A stretch of 64,000 bases of DNA from Alphaproteobacteria bacterium LSUCC0684 (GTDB taxonomy: Bacteria > Pseudomonadota > Alphaproteobacteria > Puniceispirillales > UBA1172): positions 248,001 to 312,000 of the forward strand of contig CP166130.1 in the NCBI GenBank assembly GCA_041228335.1, in the 5' to 3' direction. The translations under genes were made by a program, and so were the position numbers. Below are positions 12,564-19,192 of the stretch, piece after piece (within the stretch, counting starts at the first letter, position 1; every line of letters starts with the position of its first letter). The notes below the pieces were generated by a model. The model made no database searches. It had not been told where the DNA came from and saw nothing but the letters and a program-made list of their open reading frames with translations.

Positions 12564-13913
12564 ATGGAATGTTGTGGCCCGGGTTATGCAAGCCCTCAAG
12601 ACGCGATCAGGGCGCCGCGGGAGAAGCTGCTTTATACGATAGCCATCTATACCGGCACAGGTATCCAGAAGCCGGATTATCTGGCCACCGTGGATGTTGA
12701 CCCCGACAGCCCGACCTATAGTCAGGTGATCCACCGGCTTGAGATGCCGGGGATCGGCGATGAGTTGCATCACATGGGCTGGAACGCGTGTTCCTCCTGC
12801 CATGATGATGCGAGCATGTCCCGCAAATATCTGATCCTGCCCGGGGTGCGATCAAACAATCTGCATATTGTCGATACCGCCACCGACCCGCGGGCGCCGC
12901 GCCTCCATAAGGTGATTGATGGCGCAGAGATCAAATCAAAGGCCGATCTCTCCGGCCCGCATACGGTGCATTGCCTCGGCAGTGAGATCATCATCTCCTT
13001 CCTCGGCAACGCGAAGGGCGAGGCACCGGGCGGGTATCTTCATCTCAACAAGGATTTTGAGATTGTGGGCCGCTGGGAGAATTCCATGGGGGAAATCAAA
13101 TTCGGCTATGATTTCTGGTACCAGCCGCGGCATAACGTGATGGTCTCGTCGGAATGGGCGGCACCGAACACCTTTATGCCCGGCTTTGATCTGGAAGAAG
13201 TCGGCCATCTCAAATACGGGCGTGAGCTCCATTTCTGGGATTTCGAAAAACGTGAGCCGATAGAGAGTTTTTATCTCGGCGAAGACGGGCTGATCCCGCT
13301 GGAGGTCAAATTTCACCACAACCCGGACAGCACCCATGGCTTCTGCGGCGCGGCGCTCAGCACCAACGTGATCCACTGGTGGAAGAACGATGCCGGCAAC
13401 TGGCAATGGGAGAAGATCATCGATGTGGCAAACGAGCCGCATCCCGACTGGCCCATCCCGGTGCCGGGGGTGATGTCGGCGATCCTTGTCTCAATGGACG
13501 ACAGATACCTTTATCTCAACAACTGGCTCCATGGCGATATGCGGCAATACGATATCTCGGACCCGCATAACCCCAAACTGACAGGCCAGGTCTGGATGGG
13601 CGGGCTTCTGGGCCGGGCGCCGGTGGTCAACGGGGTTGAGATGGCGGGCGGCCCGCAGATGTTCCAGCTTTCACTTGATGGGCGGCGGCTTTACGTCACC
13701 ACCTCGCTCTTTTCAACATGGGACAATCAGTTCTATCCCGAGATACGTGAGAAAGGCGGCGTCATGGTGATGATCGACTGCGATCCGATCAATGGCGGGA
13801 TGTCGATCAACCCTGATTTCATCGTCAATTTCGGTGGTGAGCCGAACGGCCCGTCACGGTGCCATGAGATGCGGTATCCCGGCGGTGATTGCACAAGCGA
13901 TATCTGGCTATGA
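12564..13913 (+). CDS. mtoX: Methanethiol oxidase (selenium-binding protein 1 family)
   Basis: A 449-residue seven-bladed beta-propeller protein of the SELENBP1/methanethiol oxidase family. It starts ECCGPGYASPQDA, contains WNACSSCHDD, GYDFWYQPRHNVMVSSEWAA and YLNNWLHGDMRQYDISDPH, and ends RYPGGDCTSDIWL, matching the human protein almost motif for motif. The known reaction is oxidation of methanethiol to formaldehyde, hydrogen sulfide and hydrogen peroxide, with copper at the active site through conserved His residues. Methanethiol arises in marine bacteria from DMSP demethylation. There is no signal peptide, so the protein appears cytoplasmic. GAGGGAG precedes the start. Its stop overlaps the ferredoxin start (ATGA), so the two are coupled. 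Confidence 0.9.
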   Translation: MECCGPGYASPQDAIRAPREKLLYTIAIYTGTGIQKPDYLATVDVDPDSPTYSQVIHRLEMPGIGDELHHMGWNACSSCHDDASMSRKYLILPGVRSNNLHIVDTATDPRAPRLHKVIDGAEIKSKADLSGPHTVHCLGSEIIISFLGNAKGEAPGGYLHLNKDFEIVGRWENSMGEIKFGYDFWYQPRHNVMVSSEWAAPNTFMPGFDLEEVGHLKYGRELHFWDFEKREPIESFYLGEDGLIPLEVKFHHNPDSTHGFCGAALSTNVIHWWKNDAGNWQWEKIIDVANEPHPDWPIPVPGVMSAILVSMDDRYLYLNNWLHGDMRQYDISDPHNPKLTGQVWMGGLLGRAPVVNGVEMAGGPQMFQLSLDGRRLYVTTSLFSTWDNQFYPEIREKGGVMVMIDCDPINGGMSINPDFIVNFGGEPNGPSRCHEMRYPGGDCTSDIWL

Positions 13914-16381: not shown

Positions 16382-16519
16382 ATGAGTGAAGCAAATACCT
16401 GCGGTTGTGGACGCAGCCCAACTGGCAAATGCGTTGGCTGGCACAGCCTCACAGAAGATCAATACGCGACAAAGAAAGCCGCCTGGGAAGCAAAACAGGC
16501 TGAGAAGAAAAACCAATAA
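16382..16519 (+). CDS. Small Cys-rich protein, 45 residues
   Basis: A 45-residue protein, MSEANTCGCGRSPTGKCVGW then HSLTEDQYATKK and a Lys/Glu/Ala-rich tail. Three Cys (7, 9, 17) plus His21 are spaced C-x-C-x7-C-x3-H, which could bind a metal. AAGGAG lies seven bases before the ATG, a strong ribosome site, and a longer reading of the frame from 16304 has none. I recall similar tiny CGCGRSPTGKC proteins as hypothetical proteins in other bacteria but know no function. It is alone, with no overlapping neighbour. Metal binding is inference. Confidence 0.7.
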   Translation: MSEANTCGCGRSPTGKCVGWHSLTEDQYATKKAAWEAKQAEKKNQ

Positions 16520-16771: not shown

Positions 16772-18181
16772 TCAGGTTGTCAGCGCCATGGTGATGCAGG
16801 TCGCATAGACAATGCCGCAGAAAATCAGCGCCATCATCACCGCCGCGCTGCCGTAATCCTTGGCCCGTCGTGACAGGTCATGGCGGGAGAGGGAGATGCG
16901 GTCAACCGCCGCTTCGATACTCGAATTGAGCAATTCGACGATAAAGACAAGAAGCACCGAGCAGATCATCATCATCTGCTCGAAGAGATCAACGGGCAGG
17001 AGAAACGCCAGCACCAGCAAGGGCACACCAAGCAGCAATTCCTGCCGGAACGCACTTTCCTCGGTGATCGCAAACCTGAGCCCGGAGATGGAATGTCGTG
17101 CCGCGTTGAACGCCCTTTTCATCCCGGTATTATTCTTATAGGGATTGTCAATGATGTGATAGGAATCATCCGGCCGTGTTTTCACGAGATGCTCGGCAAA
17201 AACAGATGTTGCCGCCTGCCATGAAAATGTCTCTGCATGACGACGGACCTGTTGCCGCGCAATATCAAGGGCCTCCCGGCAGGCTGCGCCAAGATCATCG
17301 TCAAGGACGCCGGCACCGGATGCACCGACCACATCGATCGGCCCGGTGACCGGATAGGCCGCCACCGGCAGACCGCAGGCCATGGCTTCCAGCAGGACAA
17401 GGCCGAATGTATCTGTCCTCGACGGGAAGACGAAAACATCCGCCTTGCGGTAGAACTCGGGCAATTCCTCTTTCGATTTCATGCCGAAATAGACAGCATC
17501 AGGATATCTGGCCTTGAGCTTTTCAAGAGACGGGCCATCACCCACCACCCATTTTTCGCCGTCCAGATCAAGGCTGAGAAACGCTTCGATATTCTTTTCC
17601 ACCGCGACCCTGCCGACATAGAGAAAGACAGGCTTCGGATTGGTCTTGCGCCGCCGGGCAGGACGGAACAGGTCAAGATCCACCCCGCGTGGCCAGAGCA
17701 CGGGCGTGCCGATACGCCAGCGCTTCAGGTCTTCCTCGACGGTTTTCGTCGGCACCATCACCACCGTAGCAGGGCGATGAAACCAGCGAAGAAACCCATA
17801 GGTCAGGCTTAAGGGGATACGAAAGCGGGAATGGACATATTCGGGAAATCTCGTGTGATAGGCGGTGGTGAAGTTGAGCCCATGGCGGCGGGCAAAATTC
17901 CTGGCCGCCAGCCCCAGCGGGCCTTCGGTGGCAATATGGATAATATCTGGTGACAGATGGTGAATAAAGGAGGCAACCCGGCTTCCCGGCATCAGCGACA
18001 ACCTGATTTCCGGGTAAGTCGGGCAGGGCACCGTGCGGAACAGCTCCGGCGTCAGCATGGTCACGTCATGGCCCATTTCAATCAGCGCATCTCTTGTATG
18101 GGTGAGACTTCGCACCACCCCGTTGACCTGCGGATACCAGGCATCGGTTACGATCAGGATTTTTTGGCCGCACTCGGGCAT
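16772..18181 (-). CDS. GT4 glycosyltransferase fused to diacylglycerol kinase (DgkA)
   Basis: A 469-residue fusion. Residues 1-340 form a GT-B glycosyltransferase of family 4: GVVRSLTHTRDAL near the N-terminus, LYVGRVAVEKNIEAFL and the donor-site signature VFPSRTDTFGLVLLEAMACG. Residues 354-469 are a complete DgkA-type kinase: ESAFRQE (375-381), VELLNSSIEAAVDR (415-428) and RRAKDYGSAAV (438-448), with three hydrophobic helices. The start overlaps the stop of the PlcP-like gene (ATGA). PlcP with its adjacent glycosyltransferase (Agt) converts phospholipid to diacylglycerol and then to glycolipid in phosphate-starved marine bacteria. Both domains here would act on diacylglycerol at the inner membrane, one glycosylating and one phosphorylating it. 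The domain joining is seen; its function is inferred. Confidence 0.85.
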   Translation of the reverse strand: MPECGQKILIVTDAWYPQVNGVVRSLTHTRDALIEMGHDVTMLTPELFRTVPCPTYPEIRLSLMPGSRVASFIHHLSPDIIHIATEGPLGLAARNFARRHGLNFTTAYHTRFPEYVHSRFRIPLSLTYGFLRWFHRPATVVMVPTKTVEEDLKRWRIGTPVLWPRGVDLDLFRPARRRKTNPKPVFLYVGRVAVEKNIEAFLSLDLDGEKWVVGDGPSLEKLKARYPDAVYFGMKSKEELPEFYRKADVFVFPSRTDTFGLVLLEAMACGLPVAAYPVTGPIDVVGASGAGVLDDDLGAACREALDIARQQVRRHAETFSWQAATSVFAEHLVKTRPDDSYHIIDNPYKNNTGMKRAFNAARHSISGLRFAITEESAFRQELLLGVPLLVLAFLLPVDLFEQMMMICSVLLVFIVELLNSSIEAAVDRISLSRHDLSRRAKDYGSAAVMMALIFCGIVYATCITMALTT

Positions 18182-18987
18182 CAGGCCTCCTTCATTTCAC
18201 GCAGAGTTTCCCCGGAGACAACGGAAACCTTCATCATTTCCGACCAGTTCAGAATTTCAAACCGGCCATCATGGTGCTCGACCAGCGCAGTCATGGATTC
18301 AACCCAGTCGCCATCGTTGCAATACAGCACATCGTCGATATGGCGGATTTCAGGTTTGTGAATATGGCCGCAGATCACGCCCGTGCAGTCCCGCCGCCGG
18401 GCTTCCCTCACCATGGCGGTTTCAAACGCCGAGATAAACGATACCGCGTGTTTGACCTTGTGCTTGAGATACTGGGAAAAAGACCAGTACGGCATGTTGA
18501 AAAACCGCCGCAACAGGTTGAGCCAGTGATTGATCTTGAGCAACAGGACATAGGCCGTATCGCCAAGATAGGCCAGCCACCGTGCGTGCTGGATCACGTT
18601 GTCGAAAAGATCACCATGCACGATCCAGAAACGCTTGCCTTGCGAGGTGACATGCACCGCGTCTTCACAGATCTCGATCTCCCCGAAGGTCAGGCCGGTG
18701 AATTCGCGCGCCGCTTCATCGTGATTGCCGGGAATATAGTAAACCTTGGTGCCGTGCCGTGCCTTTCGCAGGATTTTCTGAATGACGTCGTTATGCGGCT
18801 GGGGCCAGTACCATCTTTTCTTCAGCTGCCAGCCATCGATGATATCACCCACCAGATAGAGCGTTTCGCTGCGGGTGTGTTTCAGAAAATGCAACAGTTC
18901 CATTGCCCGGGCCCCACTCGTGCCAAGATGGGTATCCGATATCCAGATCGTGCGGAAATAAAGCTGATGCTCAAGGACGGTATTCAA
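18181..18987 (-). CDS. plcP: PlcP-like phospholipase C (calcineurin-type metallophosphoesterase)
   Basis: A 268-residue metallophosphoesterase. Metal-site motifs are SDTHLG (17-22), VGDIIDGW (46-53), PGNHDE (86-91), VHGD (123-126) and CGHIHKP. The stretches YWPQPHNDVIQKILRKARHG and AVSFISAFETAMVREA resemble, from memory, rhizobial PlcP, which removes phosphocholine or phosphoethanolamine head groups to leave diacylglycerol during phosphate starvation. Databases often label such proteins UDP-2,3-diacylglucosamine hydrolase, the main alternative. The coupled glycosyltransferase supports PlcP. No ATG is available at the right place; translation probably starts at TTG 18987, with AGGGG nine bases upstream. 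Confidence 0.8.
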   Translation of the reverse strand: MNTVLEHQLYFRTIWISDTHLGTSGARAMELLHFLKHTRSETLYLVGDIIDGWQLKKRWYWPQPHNDVIQKILRKARHGTKVYYIPGNHDEAAREFTGLTFGEIEICEDAVHVTSQGKRFWIVHGDLFDNVIQHARWLAYLGDTAYVLLLKINHWLNLLRRFFNMPYWSFSQYLKHKVKHAVSFISAFETAMVREARRRDCTGVICGHIHKPEIRHIDDVLYCNDGDWVESMTALVEHHDGRFEILNWSEMMKVSVVSGETLREMKEA

Positions 18988-19192
18988 GGCGAAAACCCCT
19001 GATGCCAGAAAACATGAATGAGCTATAAAAACCCGATATTGCAGAAATATTACCGTGAGGTTTCAATCATGTTGCATTGAAAGGCCGTCTTGGGGGATTG
19101 CGTCAACCCTTCCGGTCTTGAAGGAAAGATCACTTGCAATAAACCTGTCACATTTATTCGGTATAAATCCCCTTATTTGGCAGGATTTTATC

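Follow-up and report, generated by a model that had tools for sequence, protein, structure and literature searches.

A 64,000-nucleotide stretch of the genome of Alphaproteobacteria bacterium LSUCC0684 (hereafter the window) carries a gene, agt-dgkA (16,772–18,181, minus strand), in which an Agt-type glycosyltransferase (GT) and a complete diacylglycerol kinase (DgkA) are joined in a single 469-aa chain directly downstream of a plcP-like gene. The fusion is conserved in two orders. PlcP-Agt lipid remodelling is a major phosphate-saving route of marine bacteria and has been described in Pelagibacter HTCC7211, Methylosinus trichosporium and Pseudomonas aeruginosa (PMC4796936, PMC8231724, PMC9239053, PMC8528852). 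The window shares with that pathway a plcP directly upstream of an Agt-type GT4 gene, a Pho-box promoter and conserved GT motifs, but differs from it in that its Agt bears a C-terminal DgkA. A word search of these four papers finds no mention of a kinase. Neither the fusion nor dgkA within plcP-agt clusters is described in the open-access literature searched, which agrees with the first-pass annotation, where no description was known. The fusion is, therefore, apparently undescribed, and its novelty is provisional.

Architecture of the fusion protein

ORF analysis gives an uninterrupted 469-aa frame at 16,772–18,181 on the minus strand. Pfam models place Glyco_transf_4 at residues 19–170, Glycos_transf_1 at 178–293 and DAGK_prokar (PF01219) at 363–460. 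The last of these scores 102.6 bits (Pfam cut-off 22.3 bits) and covers profile positions 2–99 of 102, which makes it full length. In a search against solved structures, residues 348–461 find their closest relative in Escherichia coli DgkA (E 7e-25), and the AlphaFold2 model (mean pLDDT 89.8) consists of a GT-B domain, a linker and a DgkA-like set of one surface helix and three long ones. The single frame, the Pfam matches and the structure match together bear out the earlier claim of a complete DgkA C-terminal to a glycosyltransferase in one chain. The linker (residues 340–351) is modelled with low confidence; across fused proteins the two matched parts are separated by a short linker of 7–22 aa with an NP(H/Y)K motif. 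An internal start at Met353 that yields a free DgkA is unlikely, this residue being Ile, Leu, Val or Phe in most relatives.

The GT domain (17,145–18,181, minus strand; residues ~1–345) has AlphaFold2 pLDDT values mostly >90 and matches GT-B enzymes, including PimA, MshA and BshA, in structure comparison. It contains GRVAVEKN at residue 190, FPSRTDTFG at 252 and YHT at ~109. Mutation of GRVAxEKN, of TDTFG or of the catalytic His of the His-Asp dyad kills Pelagibacter GTcp (PMC8231724), and the fusion retains both UDP-sugar motifs together with the catalytic His and Asp that are essential in GTcp. Its assignment as Agt/GTcp is drawn from these motifs and the fold. The domain is akin to the GT of L015, a named SAR116 sequence.

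The DgkA domain (16,772–17,125, minus strand; residues ~353–469) is recognised by PF01219, its modelled helices and invariant catalytic residues. AlphaFold2 predicts a surface helix at 353–374 followed by helices at 376–394, 399–429 and 434–468. Residues R9, G20, E28, R32, E34, E69, N72, E76, D80, K94 and D95 are identical in all 27 distinct fused DgkAs and in 27/27 DgkAs encoded by separate genes, and the catalytic set (E28, E34, E69, N72, E76, D80, K94, D95) is complete in the window protein. Mutating most of these catalytic or substrate-site residues affects catalysis in E. coli DgkA (PMC4703834). Such conservation leads us to reject a pseudo-kinase and excludes the loss of active-site residues that had been raised against the fusion. 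Profile searches of the window's genome find no other PF01219 match and no PF00781 match; the fusion's DgkA is, thus, the sole recognisable diacylglycerol (DAG) kinase of the genome. It resembles E. coli DgkA in its full-length domain, in all checked catalytic residues and in predicted helix layout. Unlike that enzyme, it sits behind a glycosyltransferase, belongs to a separate agt-linked clade and is Pho-linked through its promoter, whereas E. coli DgkA is tied to periplasmic glucan synthesis.

These features bear on two other roles for the domain. Its chief task might be to anchor the GT in the membrane and scaffold its trimerisation, thereby bringing it to DAG, with kinase activity secondary. 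In keeping with this, it adds three transmembrane helices, with an N-terminus expected to be cytoplasmic as in E. coli DgkA, to a GT whose unfused counterparts are soluble. We consider it quite unlikely: no distinct fused domain departs from the invariant catalytic residues, and DgkAs of this subfamily are also encoded by separate genes of the cluster, where covalent anchoring of Agt is impossible. Gram-positive DgkA-family enzymes act on undecaprenol, which provides a precedent for phosphorylation of a lipid alcohol other than DAG, and the agt-linked clade stands apart from E. coli DgkA and has an EESAFRQE signature common to its fused and separate-gene members. A non-DAG substrate is nevertheless highly improbable given the linkage to both a DAG producer and a DAG consumer and the retention of every E. 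coli DgkA catalytic residue checked.

The plcP junction and Pho-box promoter

The upstream gene (18,181–18,987, minus strand; TTG start) encodes a 268-aa protein that matches PF12850/PF00149 and is linked to agt. Its metal-binding motifs (SDTHLG, GDIIDGW, GNHDEA, HGDLFD, GHIHKPE) follow those expected of a PlcP metallophosphoesterase (DxH, GDxxD, GNHD, HGD, GHxH), while LpxH models score well below cut-off. On these grounds the product is a PlcP-like, calcineurin-like metallophosphoesterase, for which hydrolysis of phospholipids to DAG is predicted. The two genes meet at 18,179–18,192 (minus strand; AAGGAGGCCTGATG), where they overlap by one base (TGATG at 18,181) behind a strong Shine-Dalgarno sequence, AAGGAGG. 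Translational coupling of plcP and agt-dgkA is, therefore, probable. The coupling to plcP noted in the first-pass annotation stands insofar as the fusion lies directly downstream, but the overlap is the 1-nt TGATG and not ATGA as first described.

A Pho box (CGGTAAT-ATTT-CTGCAAT) lies at 19,038–19,055 on the minus strand, 50 nt upstream of the plcP start. Within two mismatches this site, CGGTAATATTTCTGCAAT, has a single counterpart in the 2.70-Mb genome, upstream of phoR, although the count is illustrative because the search pattern was written from the plcP and phoR sites themselves. The plcP and phoR promoters carry Pho-box arrays that are nearly identical, agreeing at about 35/40 bp over ~19,033–19,072 (counted by eye), and a second unrelated match as long as this would not be expected by chance. 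Against the E. coli consensus alone the score is marginal relative to shuffles (p 0.09), and the case for the Pho box rests on the phoR match. Elsewhere, the best Pho-like site lies in the orientation of the gene at 25/28 fused and 25/27 separate-gene loci, which come from related genomes and are not independent. A phoR-phoB-pstSCAB-phoU-like locus is present in the genome, where Pho boxes precede phoB and pstS, and a PhoB profile match exceeds cut-off with pstB nearby. In a pattern scan, promoter-like and terminator-like sites are no more frequent than in shuffles.

Two further reading frames in the window are recorded as observations. An SBP56-family selenium-binding protein (12,564–13,913, plus strand; 686 bits) is encoded a few genes from the fusion. 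A 45-aa Cys-rich ORF (16,382–16,519, plus strand; CGCGRSPTGKCVGWH...), a possible small gene, lies between an FAD-linked oxidase gene and the fusion.

Distribution and origin of the fusion

The fusion recurs in three families of the order and in one family of another order (43 loci fetched); the latter has 13 fused genes and two split. A profile search finds DgkA in 47/136 genomes of the order, with 46 of the 47 matches in frames of 464–503 aa, which is the size of the fusion. These include the window's genome and one frame with an internal stop (G510). The sole exception is a DgkA in a 194-aa frame that resembles DgkAs of another order and comes from a genome with 5% estimated contamination. 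Occurrence in dozens of genomes rules out chance and a frameshift or assembly artefact, a frameshift being one of the objections foreseen for the fusion, and the suggested search of relatives recovers not only the fusion but also its linkage to plcP in nearly all fused loci. The same adjacency of plcP and agt holds in nearly all separate-gene loci. Phage and plasmid collections hold no record that covers 80% of the fusion. In a set of 41 genomes of the order, fused Agt and DgkA have identical distributions, both being present in the same 17; another relative in the order (L128) carries plcP and a more distantly related Agt that is unfused, but no DgkA. Across 151 GT loci with determined arrangement, sampled with a bias towards the fusion's relatives, 79 have an Agt without a linked DgkA.

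This pattern bears on a further reading, in which the domain is a housekeeping DAG kinase whose link to agt is incidental and whose task is to recycle the DAG left by envelope modification (periplasmic glucans, lipid A). Recycling of this kind is what E. coli DgkA is known to do (PMC8027125), and the fusion holds the only DAG kinase of the genome. It is, however, very unlikely here because DgkA is missing altogether from relatives that lack the agt fusion and because a separate agt-linked DgkA clade exists.

A separate dgkA directly after agt, downstream of plcP, occurs at 29 loci in Pandoraea, other Burkholderiaceae, gammaproteobacterial metagenome-assembled genomes, others and the two split-gene genomes. 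Clusters of this kind (Pandoraea, other Burkholderiaceae, Polynucleobacter-like and gammaproteobacterial) share with the window the same genes, order and DgkA clade, but keep agt and dgkA as separate genes where the window has one chain. Two genomes hold agt and dgkA in a shared frame, with a single agt stop codon between the open stretches, an arrangement from which a fusion could easily arise. The GT tree groups the fused proteins in a single clade (SH-aLRT 99), joined there only by two loci with split genes and two from which DgkA has been lost. A single clade of the DgkA tree (99) takes in every DgkA that is fused or adjacent to agt, along with two stand-alone ones; other stand-alone DgkAs, including that of E. 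coli, fall outside it. Each tree comes from a quick search, and the alignment behind the DgkA tree is short. Because the fused GTs form one clade and the agt-adjacent and fused DgkAs another, the most likely and simplest reading is a single fusion from an ancestral plcP-agt-dgkA cluster, followed by one fission and one loss. Several independent fusions are not needed, since a single clade with two reversals accounts for the GT tree, although quick-method support and the short DgkA alignment leave room for them.

Some loci depart from the common arrangement. Fused-clade Agt genes without DgkA (L015:5998-6996 and L025:3285-4280) lie apart from plcP beside ppx-ppk-like genes; the L015 and L025 genomes have no PF01219 match, and plcP is found only in the L015 genome, elsewhere from agt. 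The kinase therefore appears dispensable, in that one fused-clade branch lost DgkA yet kept agt and most Agt proteins have no linked DgkA. Stand-alone fused-clade DgkAs (L141:1483-2064 and L164:1492-1908) follow a porin-like gene with no agt nearby. At four loci (L068, L073, L189, L190), a dgkA from another branch of the DgkA family is found close to plcP-agt in different order or orientation, which suggests more than one origin for the association between a DAG kinase and plcP-agt.

Proposed role in lipid remodelling

We regard agt-dgkA as probably encoding, with appreciable room for doubt, a phosphate-starvation-induced, membrane-anchored bifunctional enzyme that converts PlcP-derived DAG to glycolipid and recovers the surplus as phosphatidic acid. 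Under phosphate limitation PhoB would induce plcP and agt-dgkA together, PlcP would split phospholipids to yield DAG, and the cytoplasmic Agt domain would use a UDP-sugar to convert DAG to phosphate-free glycolipid. The DgkA domain, expected to form a trimer like E. coli DgkA, would anchor the enzyme in the membrane and phosphorylate unglycosylated DAG to phosphatidic acid. This step would limit harmful DAG build-up, protect the membrane and salvage the backbone for phospholipids that are still needed. A precedent for salvage is provided by E. coli dgkA nulls, in which DAG rises 20-fold with lethality under osmotic challenge (PMC8027125). The joint increase of DagK and PlcP under Pi depletion in Pseudomonas putida BIRD-1 (PMC5082522) is likewise a precedent for the proposed mechanism: there too a DAG kinase is Pho-linked with PlcP, but no glycosyltransferase fusion is reported for its DagK. 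Counting against this reading, the kinase appears dispensable, as noted above, and the ATP spent in remaking phosphatidic acid during phosphate starvation is not obviously useful.

The two domains could instead act as the built-in switch suggested in the first-pass annotation, in which they compete for DAG, with a regulated balance that favours glycolipid in starvation and phospholipid when phosphate returns. Both active sites look intact, DAG is the expected substrate of both, and fusion fixes the two activities at a 1:1 ratio. A switch nonetheless seems unlikely to us: the fusion has no regulatory domain, its linker is short and modelled with low confidence, both domains are under one promoter, and DgkA acts on DAG rather than glycolipid and so could not by itself reverse remodelling.

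Extending the salvage reading, it is conceivable, though we hold this only tentatively, that the fusion is a coupled, channelled DAG branch-point enzyme on a trimeric membrane platform that sets the glycolipid:phospholipid ratio of phosphate-limited marine bacteria, and that the older plcP-agt-dgkA cluster elsewhere in Proteobacteria reflects DAG salvage as an unrecognised third remodelling step. The fate of unglycosylated DAG is absent from the pathway as the cited papers describe it. A conserved DgkA partner, fused to Agt in two orders and encoded by a separate gene elsewhere, points to DAG salvage as that third step, and a single polypeptide may thus form the branch point between glycolipid and phospholipid.
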